Part shown: piece by piece, positions 1,971 to 16,730 of the stretch
Layout: every line of letters begins with the position of its first letter
How positions within the stretch are numbered: position 1 is the first letter of the stretch
IMG/VR virus record: IMGVR_UViG_3300012012_001320
Location: 1-22,121 of that record
From: a virus
Strand: one strand, 5' to 3'
Length of the DNA: 22,121 nt
Notes under the pieces: model-generated
Database searches by the model: none
What the model saw: the letters and a program-made list of their open reading frames with translations, nothing else
What the model was told of the DNA's origin: nothing
Made by a program: the position numbers and the translations under genes

Positions 1971-4291
1971 GCGTCGAGCCGCACATCCTCGCCGCGGCCC
2001 AGTCGCGCCTGCACAACGCAAAGCAGGCGCCCCTCGCCTACGCGCGCCTGTGGGACAGCCCGCGCACCTCGCAGCGCCGGGCCCTGTCGAACGTGTGCGG
2101 GGCCGGCGTGTTCATCACGCTGATGCTCGGAGGGAACCGGTGTCTCGCCGGGGAGACGCTGATCGAGAACGCCGACACGGGCGAGCGGGTCAGGATCGAC
2201 AGCATCGCCGCCCCGATCCCGGTCTGGTCAACCGACGCCAACGGCCAGCGCGTGCGGACGATGGCCGAGGCCACGCCGCGCAAGGGGCCTGACCCGCTCT
2301 ACACCGTGACCCTCTCCACCGGGGTCACGTTCACCGCCACCCTGTGGCACCGCGTCCTCAACCGTCACCGGCAGTGGCAGCACGTCGGCGCGCTGCTGCC
2401 CGGCGACAGCCTTCACGGATGCGCTCTCTCCCCGCATCGGTCCATGCCGGACACCGCCCAGTCAGCTCGTGCCGAAGGTGATCGGCGTTTGACCGAAAAA
2501 GCTCAAGGTTCTCGATGCGGTTGTCGTCATTCAGGTTGTTCAAATGATGAACGACCTCGGTGGGGAGCAAGTAGCGCCCAAGGTGGGCCTCCATCACCAA
2601 GCGGTGCTCCCGAACATAGCCGCCCGGATGACGTTGACCGGGCCGGCGCTTCGCGTGGGGGTGCTGCTCAACCCACACCAGAATGTACCCATCGGCATCA
2701 CGAATCCGGCCGCCCTTCCAGTCGGGGTGACCAGCCCCAGGCCGAGGACCCCGGGGCTTCACCGCGATCCCATGCTTTCGGCACAGGGTCGAAATGCGCT
2801 GATCCGTTGTGCCGAGTTGATCGGCAATCCATCGGTGTGTCCGGTCCTCCGCAATCCACGAGCGGATCTGATCGATCGGCCATTCTCTGCCACGGTTCGG
2901 GTGCGCCATGCCAACCTCCTACGGTGGTAAGCGTAACCTACGCCCGCACGGATTACCACCACGATCTGCACGTCCCCGGCTTCGCCTGCTTTCGGGTTGA
3001 CGGCGTCACGCACCACAACACCGGAAAGTCAGTCGCCCTCGCCCAGTGGCTGATCGCCATGGCCGCCGGCATTGACGCCACCGTCACCGCGGCCTCTGGT
3101 AAGCCCCTGCGCTACGTCCTGGCCTGGGCGCTTTCCAACGGCATCCCGACTGACCAGATCCCCGAGGGCCCCGGCCGCGTGTGGGTCGCGTCCCCAACCT
3201 TCGCTGCCGCCGTCGAGCAGATCCGCCCGCACCTGCGCAAGCTGGCGCCCGCCGGCACCACCTTCTTGCGCTGGGACGACAAGCGATCCGAGGCCGAGCT
3301 GCGCCTACCCGGCGGCGGCGTCATCGTGTCGAAGTGCTATGCACAGTACGACGCGGACCCGCAGACCTGGGAGGGGGCCAACGTGCGCGCCCTGGGCCTC
3401 GATGAGCAGCCGAATTCCCGCGCCTGCCTGACCGCCGGCCTCAGTCGCCTCGTTGACCAGCGGGGCCGCTGCCTGTGGGCGCTGACCCCCCTCCGCGGGC
3501 AAGCGGACTGGCTCTACCGCCAGATCGTCAACCCGCAGCCCGGCGAGGAGCCCGCGCCGCCCGGCTTTGTGGTCCACCACCTCCACGGCGCAGACAATCC
3601 CCACGTCCCCCAGGACTGGCGCGAGATGATGCTCGCCTCTGTCCCGAAGTGGCAGCGCGCATCCCGCGACGTCGGCGCCTTCACCTCCCCTGAGGGGGCG
3701 ATCTACCCGTTCAGCCGCGGCCTGCACATCGTCCAGCCCTTCGCTATCCCGCGGAGTTGGCGCCGCTGGCTCGGCGTCGACTGGGGCGCCCGCGCGCCGC
3801 ACGCGGTCTGGGTCGCCGAGTCGCCCGCCGGGGAGCTGTACGTCTACCGGGAGCTGTACTACCGCCGCTCCACCCTGGAGCCCGCCATCACCGACCGCGC
3901 TTTTTGTGAGGCGATCCGCGCGCAGAGCGCCCTCGACGGGCCGGTGACCATCCTCGGGGTAGCGGACAGCGAGAGCCCCGGCGCCATCGCCGAGGCCGCC
4001 GGTCTGGGCCTCGCCCTCGCCCCCGCAGCCAAGGGCCCCGGGTCCGTGCTGGCCGGGATCACGTTGGTTGCGGCGCTCCTGGCCCCCGTCGACAGCATGT
4101 CGCAGGCCGAGATCACCCCCCGCCTTCGCTTCTTCGCGTCCTGCCCTATGGTGGCCAGCGAGGTCGAGGGGCTCAAGTGGGGCAAGCACCGGGACGGCGT
4201 AGATCCGCAGCCCGACCCCGCCTGTAGCGACCACGGCGCCGACGCGCTACGGTACGTCATTCAGTTTCGCCACGCCATGGGGCTCCGATGA
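1967..4291 (+). CDS. terL: Terminase large subunit, intein-containing precursor
   Basis: The large terminase is the ATPase and nuclease that cuts concatemeric DNA and pumps it into the prohead. The precursor has 774 aa. Removing the 293-aa intein (2141-3019) leaves 481 aa, a normal TerL length. The N-extein (58 aa) ends in GGNR and the C-extein starts TGKS, so splicing rebuilds the Walker A loop GGNRTGKS. In mature numbering the Walker B is LGLDEQ (D186, E187), followed by a coupling motif LWALTP. The RNase H-like nuclease shows acidic residues in LGVDWG (D312), VADSES (D374) and HGADALRY (D466). The ATG at 1967 overlaps the XRE gene stop, and the stop overlaps the portal ATG. Without splicing the P-loop is broken, so function depends on the intein. 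Confidence 0.93.
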   Translation: MSVEPHILAAAQSRLHNAKQAPLAYARLWDSPRTSQRRALSNVCGAGVFITLMLGGNRCLAGETLIENADTGERVRIDSIAAPIPVWSTDANGQRVRTMAEATPRKGPDPLYTVTLSTGVTFTATLWHRVLNRHRQWQHVGALLPGDSLHGCALSPHRSMPDTAQSARAEGDRRLTEKAQGSRCGCRHSGCSNDERPRWGASSAQGGPPSPSGAPEHSRPDDVDRAGASRGGAAQPTPECTHRHHESGRPSSRGDQPQAEDPGASPRSHAFGTGSKCADPLCRVDRQSIGVSGPPQSTSGSDRSAILCHGSGAPCQPPTVVSVTYARTDYHHDLHVPGFACFRVDGVTHHNTGKSVALAQWLIAMAAGIDATVTAASGKPLRYVLAWALSNGIPTDQIPEGPGRVWVASPTFAAAVEQIRPHLRKLAPAGTTFLRWDDKRSEAELRLPGGGVIVSKCYAQYDADPQTWEGANVRALGLDEQPNSRACLTAGLSRLVDQRGRCLWALTPLRGQADWLYRQIVNPQPGEEPAPPGFVVHHLHGADNPHVPQDWREMMLASVPKWQRASRDVGAFTSPEGAIYPFSRGLHIVQPFAIPRSWRRWLGVDWGARAPHAVWVAESPAGELYVYRELYYRRSTLEPAITDRAFCEAIRAQSALDGPVTILGVADSESPGAIAEAAGLGLALAPAAKGPGSVLAGITLVAALLAPVDSMSQAEITPRLRFFASCPMVASEVEGLKWGKHRDGVDPQPDPACSDHGADALRYVIQFRHAMGLR
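2358..2909 (-). CDS. HNH homing endonuclease, antisense inside intein
   Basis: A 183-aa HNH endonuclease encoded on the strand opposite to the intein that contains it. Residues 11-48 form a helix-turn-helix (DQIRSWIAEDRTHRWIADQL, then TTDQRISTLCRKHGI), probably for DNA binding. Residues 60-147 match the phage HNH_3-type core: GGYVREHRLVMEAHLGR, then catalytic TEVVHHLN (H121, H122), then DDNRIENLELF (N130, N134). The C-terminal 35 residues are Arg/Ala rich and antisense to intein splicing block B. The ATG at 2909 has a perfect AGGAGG (2920-2915) 5 nt upstream. The predicted role is cutting intein-less terL alleles to spread the intein. Family homology rules out a chance shadow ORF. A promoter on this strand is not evident. 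Confidence 0.93.
   Translation of the reverse strand: MAHPNRGREWPIDQIRSWIAEDRTHRWIADQLGTTDQRISTLCRKHGIAVKPRGPRPGAGHPDWKGGRIRDADGYILVWVEQHPHAKRRPGQRHPGGYVREHRLVMEAHLGRYLLPTEVVHHLNNLNDDNRIENLELFRSNADHLRHELTGRCPAWTDAGRERIREGCRRAAARRRAATAGDG
2915..2920 (-). promoter_or_regulatory. Shine-Dalgarno of the antisense HNH gene
   Basis: On the minus strand AGGAGG is followed by 5 nt and ATG. This is one of the strongest ribosome binding sites in the window, and it lies inside the intein coding sequence, showing that the HNH gene is arranged as an independently translated gene. Confidence 0.85.
2923..2960. repeat. 8-bp inverted repeat upstream of HNH gene
   Basis: GGTGGTAA at 2923-2930 and TTACCACC at 2953-2960 are perfect inverted repeats around 22 nt. 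On the minus strand the hairpin would end 2 nt before the AGGAGG of the HNH gene. On the plus strand it lies in the codons for the start of the C-terminal splicing blocks. Confidence 0.6.
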
Positions 4292-12635: not shown

Positions 12636-13598
12636 ATGGCCCAGCCCCGTACCGCTCGCGGCTCCTTCCTCGGGGTCGCGCCCGACAACACTACCTACGG
12701 CACCGCCGCCGGCACGCTGACCCACTTTTTCCGGCTCTTCACGGCCGGGATCACGAACGTCTGTAACGATGTTCCGGTCGGGACGCTGGCGGACTCGAAC
12801 AACGCCAGCGAGGTCGTCTCCGTCCACGTCCGGAACGAGCAGAGCATCACGGGCACCGTTGAGATGCCGCTCATGGCCGAAGGGATGGGCCTGCTCATCC
12901 ATCATGCCATGTGGGCGACCGCCACCACGGGCAGCGGCCCCTACACGCACACCAGCACGGTCGCCTCCAGTCGCCCGGCCCTGGGTCTGACCCTTGAGCA
13001 GTGCACCGGCGCCAAGTCGGAGATTTTCCCGGGCGGGCGGATCTCCAAGATGGTGCTCAAGGGCGAGGTTGGCGGGGGCGTGCTGCGCGCGGCCTTCGAC
13101 GTCATCGCCCAGGCCCCGACCGCAGCCCCGGGCACACCGTCTACCCCCACCTACACGGCGAACGAAACCGCCTCGACGGTCGAGTGGTGGCGCGGGGCAA
13201 CGGCCAGCATCGGCGGGAACGCCTACAAGATCCAGTCGTTCGAGATCACCCTTGATCGCAAGCTTGAGCCGATCCGGTCTGTCGGAGCGCTGGTGACTGA
13301 CGATCCGGCAACCAGCACCCGGCCCGAGGTCATGGGCAAGTTCCGCCTCGCTCAGTACGACGATCAGCTCTACGCCGACTACAAGGCCGGCACCGAGGCC
13401 AACGTCACGCTGACCTTTACGAAGGGCACCAAGTCGATCGCCTTCACAGTCGAAAACGCCCACATCGGCAAGTACGCCGAGAATCGCGGAACCGGGCCCA
13501 CGATCATCGATCTGGAGGTGGTGGGCCAGTCGGATAGCTCTGACACCGGCCTCAAGATCGTGATCGTCAACAGCCAGTCCACCTACTCCGCAGCGTGA
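12636..13598 (+). CDS. Major tail tube protein (predicted)
   Basis: Predicted subunit of the hollow tube through which DNA is ejected, 320 aa. The protein is strand-rich with the expected plan: N-terminal arm (FLGVAPDNTTYGTAAGTL), a core with VEMPLMAEGMGLLIHHAMWA, SKMVLKGEVGGGVLRAAFDVIAQ, YKIQSFEITLDRKL, and C-terminal strands (NVTLTFTKGTKSIAFTVENAH, IIDLEVVGQSD). AGGAG at 12623-12627 lies 8 nt upstream of the ATG. It is placed before the chaperone and tape measure, as in most siphophages. There is no sheath gene next to it, so the tail should be non-contractile. Family identity rests on layout and position. Confidence 0.75.
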   Translation: MAQPRTARGSFLGVAPDNTTYGTAAGTLTHFFRLFTAGITNVCNDVPVGTLADSNNASEVVSVHVRNEQSITGTVEMPLMAEGMGLLIHHAMWATATTGSGPYTHTSTVASSRPALGLTLEQCTGAKSEIFPGGRISKMVLKGEVGGGVLRAAFDVIAQAPTAAPGTPSTPTYTANETASTVEWWRGATASIGGNAYKIQSFEITLDRKLEPIRSVGALVTDDPATSTRPEVMGKFRLAQYDDQLYADYKAGTEANVTLTFTKGTKSIAFTVENAHIGKYAENRGTGPTIIDLEVVGQSDSSDTGLKIVIVNSQSTYSAA

Positions 13599-13605
13599 GG
13601 GCAAC

Positions 13606-14127
13606 ATGAGCGCATTTCTCAAGCATCTGGCCACCCTCCCCGCGCCACCCGCCGCCGGAACGCCGCTGATCGTCGACGTCCCCACCAAGGGGATCACCGT
13701 CCGCGCGCGGATGCCGAAGGCGGGCGCCCTGTTCTTCACCTCGGTCGGCACCCTCCTTGCGCACCGCGCCGCGCGCGACGTAGAGCCCGACCCTGGGACC
13801 GCGGATCACCTGCGCGACTTCTACGCGGCCATCGTGTGCGAGACGGTCGACGGCATCGGCCCCATCGGCGGCGCGATTGAGCCCTGCCGCCTCGTGTCGG
13901 TGCGCTCGGACGCCACCCCGGCCGCGCTGGTTGAGTCGGTCGCCTCGGACGGCGACATGCCTGCGCTGTGGATCTGGCAGATCCTCGACGGCACCTCGGC
14001 GAAGATGGTCGGTGATGCCGTCTACACCTTCGCCGGGGAGGGCCGGGCCCTGCCCCCTTTCGTGTCGCCCGCCGATCCCTCGCCACCCTCGCCAGGGTCG
14101 GGCGGGCCTTCGGAGTCGACCCCCTGA
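13606..14127 (+). CDS. Tail assembly chaperone (lambda G analogue)
   Basis: Predicted chaperone that binds the tape measure protein during tail assembly, 173 aa when read without frameshift. It lies between the tail tube and the tape measure, the invariant place of lambda gpG analogues. Residues 1-145 form a mixed domain (TLPAPPAAGTPLIVDVPTKG, LWIWQILDGTSAKMV), and the unshifted C-terminus is a low-complexity Pro/Ser/Gly tail. GAGGG just before the ATG is a reasonable ribosome binding site. A slippery heptamer at 14055-14061 followed by a stem suggests that some ribosomes shift to the -1 frame and make a longer G-T protein ending at 14276. Confidence 0.75.
   Translation: MSAFLKHLATLPAPPAAGTPLIVDVPTKGITVRARMPKAGALFFTSVGTLLAHRAARDVEPDPGTADHLRDFYAAIVCETVDGIGPIGGAIEPCRLVSVRSDATPAALVESVASDGDMPALWIWQILDGTSAKMVGDAVYTFAGEGRALPPFVSPADPSPPSPGSGGPSESTP
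14055..14061 (+). promoter_or_regulatory. Slippery heptamer CCCTTTC for -1 frameshifting
   Basis: CCCTTTC fits the X-XXY-YYZ rule exactly in the chaperone frame: codons CCT (14056) and TTC (14059) can re-pair in the -1 frame as CCC and TTT, keeping Pro and Phe. The -1 frame is open from here to 14276. Confidence 0.75.
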
Positions 14128-14276
14128 CTGTGCTCGATTGGTCACCCCTCCGCCTCGGGTTGGCGCTGGACGCGCTCGACGCTGAGGCCGAAGAGGCCGA
14201 CGAAGCGATCCAGGCCCTGGGCGCGCGGAAAGAGCGGCCCGACATCGTGTATACTATCCCCCTCACCGCCGGCTGA
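14061..14276 (+). CDS. Frameshift extension of chaperone (lambda T analogue), 71 aa
   Basis: Read in the -1 frame after the slip, this adds 71 residues to the first 152 of the chaperone, giving a 223-aa fusion. The extension reads like a real protein: RVARRSLATLARVGRAFGVD, then PLTVLDWSPLRLGLALDAL, then an acidic/helical part (AEAEEADEAIQALGARKER). Lambda and many other siphophages make a gpG-T fusion by this kind of slip just before the tape measure gene. An independent start at GTG 14130 (48 aa) is possible but would lose the well-formed first part. The stop lies 3 nt before the tape measure GTG. Confidence 0.7.
   Translation, partial: RVARRSLATLARVGRAFGVDPLTVLDWSPLRLGLALDALDAEAEEADEAIQALGARKERPDIVYTIPLTAG
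14067..14107 (+). promoter_or_regulatory. Stem-loop stimulating the frameshift
   Basis: GCCCGCC (14067-14073) pairs perfectly with GGCGGGC (14101-14107), and ACCCT/AGGGT (14085-14089 with 14094-14098) forms an inner hairpin with a 4-nt loop. The stem starts 5 nt after the slippery heptamer, the normal spacing for a frameshift stimulator. Confidence 0.65.
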
Positions 14277-14279
14277 TCC

Positions 14280-16730
14280 GTGTCTGATGTCCGCCTATCG
14301 CTGACCCTCACCGACGGCGTCTCCGCCGCGCTGGCCGCCATGGCCGGGGCAGCGGGTCAGGCGGCGGCGGCCGAGGAGAGCCTGCGGGCGGCGCTGGCGC
14401 AGACCGGGGCGGCGTCGGCGGCGACCGCCGCGGCCATCACCTCGACCACCACGGCGACCCGTGGCGCCTCGGCGGCGGCGAGCGAGTTGGGCGCCGACCT
14501 TGAGCGGATGCGGCGCCGGATGGAAGACCTCGCCGCGGTAAATCCCGTGGAGAAGGCGGTCCTGGGCTACCGTAGGGCCGCGGCTGAGGTGCGCGCCTAT
14601 GCCGAGGCCACCGGGGACGCGGCCACGGCGTCTAAGGCCATGGCGGGCCTCGATGCGCGCCTCGCCGCCGTGATCAGCGACCGCAACGCCGCAACGAAGG
14701 CCACCACCACCGCCACGCGCGGGGCCACGGATGCCAGCGTTGGCTTCGCGCAGGCGACACAGAGGGTGGGGATCTCCTCGGGTCAGACGGCGGCGGCGGT
14801 CACCAACCTCCGCGCCCAGTTCGTCGATCTATTTACCCAGATTTCAACCGGCGGATCGCCGATCACCGCCCTCATTCAGCAGGGGCCACAGATCGCCGAG
14901 GCGATGGCCCAGGGCGGCGGCGCGGTGCGCACCCTGACGGGCGCCCTGTCGTTCCTCGCCGGCCCGATCGGCGTGGTCGCGGCGGCGGCGCTGGCGATGG
15001 GCGGCGCCCTGTTCTACGCCAGCAAGCAGGCCGGGGAGGCCGAGGCGAAGGTGCGGGCCAGCGCTGAGGCGGCAGACGCGGCGGCGGCGGCCTATGGGCG
15101 CCTGCGGGACTCGCAGCGGCTCCAGACGGTGCAGGTAGCGGTCGCGGCGGGTGAGCTTGACCCGTCGGCCGTGCGGACAACCCAGGCCACCTTGCAGGCC
15201 GAGGCGCAGTACCGGGACCAGATCAACGCCGCCCGCGCGAAGCAGATCGCGCAGACCACCGCCCTCGCCACGGCCGAGCGGGCGCTGGCGACTGAGTACA
15301 AGCGCAACGGGGGGATCGCCACGGCGACCACCGCGGCGATGGAGGAGCGCATCCGCGCTGCCCGCGCCGGCTTCGAGGCCGCCAAGGGGCAGGTTGACGG
15401 GCTTACGGATCGTGTCGCCGAGACGGCGGCCGGGATCGTCGAGTGGGAGGACTACTCAGGGCGCGCGGCTGGCGCTGTCGGCAAGGTGGCCACGGCGGCC
15501 CGAGACACGGGCGACCGGATGGTGGCTGTCCGCGCCTCGCTGGCGGCCCTGGTGGCCCAGGCCGACGCCTTCGCGCCCCCGGTCGTGTCGGCGCGCGAAG
15601 AGTTGATCAAGATGGGCGCGGTGTTGGACTCGATCCGAGCCGGCGGCGCGGCCCTCGGGATCGACGTGTCGGGCACGGTCGACAGGCTCCAGGCCGAGAT
15701 TGAGCGGCGAGACATCGCCCTGCGACTGGACGCCGTGGGCGCCTACGCGGCTGAGGCGGCGGCAGCCATCGAGGAGGAACTGCAAGGCGTGGTGGAGCGG
15801 GTCAACGCCGAGTTGGCCCTTGACGACCTGATCACCCAGATGGGCGGCTTTGTGCGCTCCACGGTGGACGCGCTGACAGAGGCGGGCGCGCGGGCGGTGC
15901 GCCAGTCGACCGCGGGGCAGGCCGTCTCGGCGCTGGCTGGGGGCGCGTCCGGGGTAATGTCGGCGGTCGGCATGGCTGGCCCGGTCGGGGCCATGGTGGC
16001 CATGGGCTACGACCTGATCACCGGGATCGCGGACGGCTCGCTGATGGAGATCGCGAAGATGCCGACTGAGATCGCCCGGTCGCTGGCGGTCCTGGGTCCG
16101 GCGGTGTCCGACGCCGTTGTGGAGCTGGTAGCGTCGGGAATTCCCGCGCTGATCGAGTCGATCCCGAAGATGATCGACGGCATCCTGCTTGAGGCGATCC
16201 CGGCGCTGGCGGCGCTCCTTTTGGACCCGCGCACCCAAATCGCCATCGTAAAGTCGCTGGTGATGGCCATCGTCCAGTCGATCGGCGGGGTCGCGGAGTA
16301 CATCGTGCGCGCCGCCGGCGAGACATGGCAGCGCGTCTCCAAGGGCGTGTCGGGTCTGTTTTCGGCCGACCGCTGGCGAGAGATCGGCCGGTCCATCGCC
16401 CAGGCCGTGCGCGACTTCTTCGGAGGGGCCGGCAAAAAGGTCAAAAAGGCCGCCAAGTCCGCCGGGGAGACGGTCGCCGAGTGGTGGGAAGAGGCGTTTG
16501 AGTCGGGGACGGCGTATGTCCCGCGCACGGGCGTCTACATGCTCCATCAGGGTGAGCGCGTGGTCAATCGGGCCGGGGTCAACGCCGAGACGGCGCGCAA
16601 GGCGCAGCCGCCAGCCCGGGACGCCGTGCGCCTCGATCGCATCACGATCCTCGACATGGACGGGACCGCGCGCGAGATGCGCAAGTACCTCGGCGCCAAG
16701 GGCCGGGGCGGCCGGTTGGAGTTGACGTGA
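14280..16730 (+). CDS. Tail tape measure protein
   Basis: Predicted tape measure, 816 aa, which sets tail length and is ejected ahead of the DNA. It is alanine-rich and mostly helical, with coiled-coil stretches in residues 40-170 and 255-410. A hydrophobic segment lies at about 221-250 (GALSFLAGPIGVVAAAALAM), with more hydrophobic stretches near 548-585 and 622-675. The C-terminus has the common tape-measure ending YVPRTGVYMLHQGERVVNR (about 747-765). At roughly 1.5 angstroms per residue the tail would be about 120 nm. The GTG at 14280 lies 3 nt after the chaperone extension stop. It is the longest gene of the tail module and precedes the tip genes, as expected. Confidence 0.9.
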   Translation: MSDVRLSLTLTDGVSAALAAMAGAAGQAAAAEESLRAALAQTGAASAATAAAITSTTTATRGASAAASELGADLERMRRRMEDLAAVNPVEKAVLGYRRAAAEVRAYAEATGDAATASKAMAGLDARLAAVISDRNAATKATTTATRGATDASVGFAQATQRVGISSGQTAAAVTNLRAQFVDLFTQISTGGSPITALIQQGPQIAEAMAQGGGAVRTLTGALSFLAGPIGVVAAAALAMGGALFYASKQAGEAEAKVRASAEAADAAAAAYGRLRDSQRLQTVQVAVAAGELDPSAVRTTQATLQAEAQYRDQINAARAKQIAQTTALATAERALATEYKRNGGIATATTAAMEERIRAARAGFEAAKGQVDGLTDRVAETAAGIVEWEDYSGRAAGAVGKVATAARDTGDRMVAVRASLAALVAQADAFAPPVVSAREELIKMGAVLDSIRAGGAALGIDVSGTVDRLQAEIERRDIALRLDAVGAYAAEAAAAIEEELQGVVERVNAELALDDLITQMGGFVRSTVDALTEAGARAVRQSTAGQAVSALAGGASGVMSAVGMAGPVGAMVAMGYDLITGIADGSLMEIAKMPTEIARSLAVLGPAVSDAVVELVASGIPALIESIPKMIDGILLEAIPALAALLLDPRTQIAIVKSLVMAIVQSIGGVAEYIVRAAGETWQRVSKGVSGLFSADRWREIGRSIAQAVRDFFGGAGKKVKKAAKSAGETVAEWWEEAFESGTAYVPRTGVYMLHQGERVVNRAGVNAETARKAQPPARDAVRLDRITILDMDGTAREMRKYLGAKGRGGRLELT

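Follow-up and report, generated by a model that had tools for sequence, protein, structure and literature searches.

Tail genes and overlapping reading frames of the locus

The window analysed here is the whole stretch of viral DNA, 22,121 nucleotides in length, and it contains three consecutive genes for a tail tube protein, a 173-aa product (G), and a tape measure protein. G runs from an ATG at 13606 to a stop codon at 14125-14127 and is overlapped by a second frame (-1), which stays open until shortly before the tape measure start codon (GTG, 14280). The features are as follows.

12636-13598, + strand: tail tube protein (PF18906, E=2e-18)
13606-14127, + strand: G (173 aa, 0 frame), located between the tail tube and tape measure genes; putative tail assembly chaperone, weak predicted-fold match
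14016-14276, + strand: open frame in -1, encoding the T extension (71 aa) from 14061; stop TGA 14274-14276
14035-14042, + strand: Shine-Dalgarno-like GGGGAGGG, possible 5' stimulator, GGAGG core at 14037-14041
14039-14051, + strand: inverted repeat AGGGC-CGG-GCCCT, overlapping the Shine-Dalgarno-like element
14055-14061, + strand: slippery heptamer C_CCT_TTC, in phase, the single one in G, identical in three contigs
14067-14107, + strand: downstream stem GCCCGCC/GGCGGGC, possible 3' stimulator, inner hairpin at 14077-14097; at most marginally above chance
14130-14132, + strand: GTG, first possible T-frame start and rival start, just past the G stop and inside the conserved T domain
14280-16730, + strand: tape measure protein (PF06791, E=8e-08; PHROG_24, E=4e-12)

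Several features of a lambda-type G/GT pair are present, namely the position between the major tail protein and tape measure genes, an overlapping downstream -1 ORF lacking its own start, and an in-phase slippery heptamer within the overlap. The G and -1 frames are both open over 37 codons, and the T frame contains no ATG, GTG, or TTG between 14016 and 14129, the first start being GTG 14130. Read from ATG 13606, the heptamer falls as C CCT TTC and is the sole in-phase X_XXY_YYZ within G. Past the heptamer, the -1 frame encodes the 71-aa peptide RVARRSLATLARVGRAFGVDPLTVLDW...TAG. In-phase heptamers with A or T as Y are rare here, occurring at 2 of the 6109 codon positions in all genes of the window, a rate that predicts only 0.012 for the 37 codons over which both frames are open. 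The codon CCT is itself used for just 14 of the 268 proline codons in the window.

The initial annotation had described a correctly phased CCCTTTC heptamer followed by a 71-aa extension ending just before the tape measure gene, and both descriptions are confirmed. It had also considered the heptamer less usual than GGGAAAG-type sites, which should not be understood as a poor site: C_CC.U_UU.C is named among the high-level frameshifting motifs in an E. coli survey, and H_HH.U_UU.Y is among its most efficient motif classes (PMC4066793). This ranking applies to E. coli; for the host of the present phage, the tRNA and anti-SD details are assumed.

Elsewhere in the window, a 293-aa intein (2141-3019, + strand) interrupts the Walker A motif of the terminase large subunit between GGNR and TGKS; it matches TIGR01445 below the cut-off (E=5.5e-4). 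A 183-aa ORF for an HNH endonuclease (PF13392, E=1.7e-7; 2358-2909, - strand) lies antisense within the intein, the frame of which stays open. The intein looks mobile because four close relatives (L007-L010) possess an uninterrupted GGNRTGKS.

Coding evidence and homology of the -1 extension

Near copies of the region were identified in two metagenome contigs (L001 and L002), and the heptamer, frames, and stops are identical across all three contigs. Past the G stop, changes fall mostly at third positions of the -1 codons (11/15 and 7/9). In the overlap, one of 73 bases is changed, as compared with 30/449 and 28/449 in the preceding part of G; the three contigs are close relatives, and this low variation is only mildly informative, supportive rather than decisive.

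More distant relatives were obtained in a different way. A syntenic phage (L015) with a 35% identical tail tube was found through a tape measure scan, and tail tube alignments led to 42 and 80 further loci, partly on the same contigs. It was alignment of the tail tube that succeeded in finding relatives; a broader alignment of this protein proved too divergent for scanning. BLAST comparison of G and T with the tape-measure relatives gave no usable match, a search of phage records with G returned nothing, and the same search with the tape measure protein matched only its conserved core. Likewise, tblastn with the T domains of two relatives found no phage record. G of the window is barely similar to G of the relatives (E=0.035).

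The T domain provides a much clearer connection. A profile built from the distant relatives only, with the window left out, matches the -1 ORF of the window at E=7.8e-11, the next-best ORF in the window reaching E=0.026. The similarity begins at 14079, upstream of the G stop and 17 codons ahead of GTG 14130, such that a conserved helix and the block ...YG..P.E... are encoded before this codon. In the relatives, T likewise begins directly after a Phe codon of G, and the junction is homologous. As the similarity starts at 14079 and the first T-frame start is at 14130, access to the T domain requires a frame change ahead of 14079, where the only canonical slippery site is CCCTTTC.

Translation of T as a separate protein of 48 residues, by reinitiation at GTG 14130 after the stop at 14125-14127, can be judged against this boundary. 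The three contigs all retain this GTG, which sits 2 nt past the G stop. Moreover, the T homologue has its own ATG in two relatives (L206/L207), and L015 has an ATG with an upstream GGAG past the G stop. Since the similarity starts upstream of the G stop, however, reinitiation would cut the T domain off, leaving a product without the first helix or the conserved Y/F-G..P block. The nearest GGAG is approximately 14 nt before the GTG, farther than is usual for initiation, and a T start is not conserved in most relatives. We thus regard reinitiation as very unlikely. The initial annotation had named homologues with a separately started extension as evidence that would count against its proposal; such a start was found only in L206/L207 and possibly in L015, and the window has none.

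The open stretch would also permit the -1 frame to be entered at any point before 14079, so that CCCTTTC would be incidental and entry would occur elsewhere in 14016-14078 or otherwise, for example by polymerase slippage at the run of five C that precedes TTT. Five C is short for polymerase slippage, there is no other in-phase heptamer between 14016 and 14078, and the junction in the window matches that of the relatives in lying directly after the Phe codon, all of which make this account highly improbable. It is extremely unlikely that the -1 ORF is an unexpressed and decaying T left behind when an indel abolished a +1 frameshift. In favour of this reading is the contrast between the window lineage and its relatives, nearly all of which are arranged for +1. 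Against it, the T frame is uninterrupted in the three contigs with most changes at third positions, chance would have had to produce an efficient in-phase heptamer, and a second -1 arrangement occurs at the same place in another contig (L202).

A -1 fusion of T to G is the best-fitting reading because T lacks a start codon, the -1 product is homologous from 14079 onward, and the substitutions are of coding type; the proposal of -1 frameshifting in this gene is supported on these same three grounds. It is therefore very probable, in our judgment, that the phage is long-tailed and that this region encodes its G/GT pair of tail assembly chaperones, with GT made by -1 slippage at CCCTTTC. Under this model, most ribosomes would read G through to the stop at 14127, while in a minority the tRNA-Pro on CCT and the tRNA-Phe on TTC would re-pair one base back, with CCC and TTT. 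Slipped ribosomes would continue in the -1 frame and add the 71-residue T domain to residues 1-152 of G, joining Pro-Phe to Arg-Val.

The putative chaperone role of G and T follows from gene position and analogy with lambda, in which case G would form a coat on the tape measure protein, and tail tube subunits would be recruited by the T part of GT. G and T gave no match in Pfam, PHROG, or NCBIfam by sequence and profile searches, and a PDB fold search gave none. The structure model of G (pLDDT 66) yielded weak matches to annotated phage tail assembly chaperones, with E values of 5e-3 and worse, and T is predicted to be helical (pLDDT 84).

Candidate stimulators around the slippery site

The initial annotation placed a 7-bp stem with an inner hairpin 5 nt downstream of the heptamer. 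These elements exist (arms GCCCGCC 14067-14073 and GGCGGGC 14101-14107), but they carry little evidential weight, as an equally long stem occurs in the same place at 25% of background positions. The downstream region does not fold better than dinucleotide shuffles (z -0.25), and 14062-14109 is folded equally well by 4% of synonymous shuffles. The stem is the weakest element of the cassette and is not clearly more than chance.

Upstream, the GGAGG core of GGGGAGGG ends 13 nt before the heptamer. Shine-Dalgarno-like stimulators act at dnaX and IS911 with a spacing of 6-17 nt (PMC4066793), a range that includes the 13 nt in the window, and by this analogy GGGGAGGG could serve as a stimulator of the same kind. 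The element is not significant alone under synonymous shuffles (expected 0.25). Its availability is unsure because the inverted repeat at 14039-14051 overlaps it; the upstream fold has an energy of -14.7 versus -10.3 in synonymous shuffles (fraction 0.074). This repeat could hide the Shine-Dalgarno-like element or act as a 5' hairpin in its own right.

Apparent direction of frameshifting in relatives, and known systems

Profile iteration yielded 96 loci with a T domain, although in several cases the same contig had been fetched twice. Automatic classification assigned 55 distinct sequences to a class with T in the +1 frame and TTT_C in the G frame. TTT_T is present at the junction in L234 and L294, and L280 and L278, which the script assigned to a different class, by eye are also +1 at TTT_C. 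After near copies were removed, 45 non-redundant relatives carried a homologous T in +1, about 43 with TTT_C and 2 with TTT_T. The junction search sought TTT followed by C or T, which favours its discovery, yet only about 0.008 are expected per locus; among the other codons in the G genes of the +1 relatives, just 4 of 7114 are TTT with a C after it. Movement of the P-site tRNA-Phe from UUU to UUC would explain the conserved TTT_C.

Between -30 and +3, several of these phages (L180, L183, L192, L193, L176, and others) display an apparent +1 site at TTT_C that a short hairpin separates from a Shine-Dalgarno-like element at -25/-26; their tail chaperone family is without a Pfam or PHROG entry. 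Of the +1 relatives, 29/45 have GGAGG or AGGAG within the upstream segment tested, the number expected under synonymous shuffling being 10.1, and the stretch from -24 to -4 is more structured than such shuffles (combined Z -8.4, per-sequence energy), both values overstating significance in that kinship among the relatives is ignored. Among the tests of this hairpin, the one on per-sequence energy alone is strong: a fixed-register covariation count is weak (27/500 shuffles), and RNAalifold returned no consensus for it, probably due to a hairpin register that varies among the relatives.

The window differs from this clade in spite of a homologous T domain: T is in -1, and the Phe codon is TTC. 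A Shine-Dalgarno-like element is present at another spacing, and an inverted repeat overlaps it. Among relatives bearing T, a -1 arrangement is found only in the window lineage (C_CCT_TTC) and in one other contig, L202 (C_CCT_TTG). At L202:4033-4084, the heptamer CCCTTTG is preceded by GGGAGGG, the GGAGG core of which ends 14 nt before the heptamer, as compared with 13 in the window. L202 is a single contig on a long branch in which T runs off the contig end, so that an assembly indel is possible; a search for independent contigs of this lineage found none. In the tail tube tree, which is midpoint-rooted, the two -1 groups need two changes, with +1 taken as ancestral from its numbers.

Two further arrangements were observed. 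In L015 (L015:3633-3830), a TTT_C +1 junction is accompanied by the ATG and GGAG just past the G stop, such that T could be produced fused to G, on its own, or in both forms. HK639-type phages that share the tape measure core (L011, L020, L034, and others) have a -1 G/T overlap with AAAAAAC and a T that looks different.

Judged from sequence comparison, the direction of the slip seems to have changed in evolution, nearly all distant relatives being arranged for +1 and the window for -1. The gene pair is thus conserved, but its direction is not. The probable mechanism and the placement are like those of lambda G/GT, and the label "textbook" in the initial annotation misleads, given 45 non-redundant relatives arranged for +1. 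We tentatively suggest, with somewhat less than even confidence, that this chaperone family outside Pfam, PHROGs, and NCBIfam ancestrally relied on +1 slippage in which tRNA-Phe moves off UUU onto UUC, and that a 5' stimulator of a new kind, composed of a Shine-Dalgarno-like element and a hairpin immediately upstream of the site, drives this shift. The window lineage and, separately, L202 would have switched to -1 on CCCTTT, keeping the TTT core and a Shine-Dalgarno-like element 13-14 nt upstream, without the same spacer hairpin.

If this is true, the direction of frameshifting depends in part on the spacing and structure between an internal Shine-Dalgarno-like element and the slip site, and it can be reversed in evolution. 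The same junction and TTT core, arranged for +1 in nearly all members of the family and for -1 in two lineages, suggest selection on G:GT output rather than on direction. The +1 and -1 homologues are also matched natural cassettes for testing what decides direction, and annotation of GT by a search for -1 heptamers alone misses this T family. By itself, the window is a further example of a well-known rule, and the greater significance lies in the comparison.

Lambda G/GT is a -1 programmed frameshift (Levin 1993; Xu 2004; as summarised in PMC5009743), and it resembles the window in gene position between tail tube and tape measure, in the -1 shift at an X_XXY_YYZ near the end of G, and in a short C-terminal extension without its own start. 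It differs in its heptamer (GGGAAAG versus CCCTTTC), and G and T of the window are unrelated to any curated family tested, with nearest relatives that are +1. Those relatives share with the window the tail tube family, the T domain, the post-Phe junction, and a purine-rich Shine-Dalgarno-like element upstream, while differing in frame, in slip site, and in the position of this element ahead of a short hairpin. The -1 sites of E. coli dnaX and IS911 likewise combine a heptamer with a Shine-Dalgarno-like element within 6-17 nt and a 3' stem (PMC4066793), although they serve another gene and purpose and the putative stimulator of the window may be locked in a hairpin. Finally, structural and tail genes of phages can use either direction, with +1 frameshifts in Listeria phage PSA and the haloarchaeal virus HSTV-2 (PMC5009743); the PSA sites are CCC_UGA for the tail shaft gene and a CCC codon for the capsid gene.
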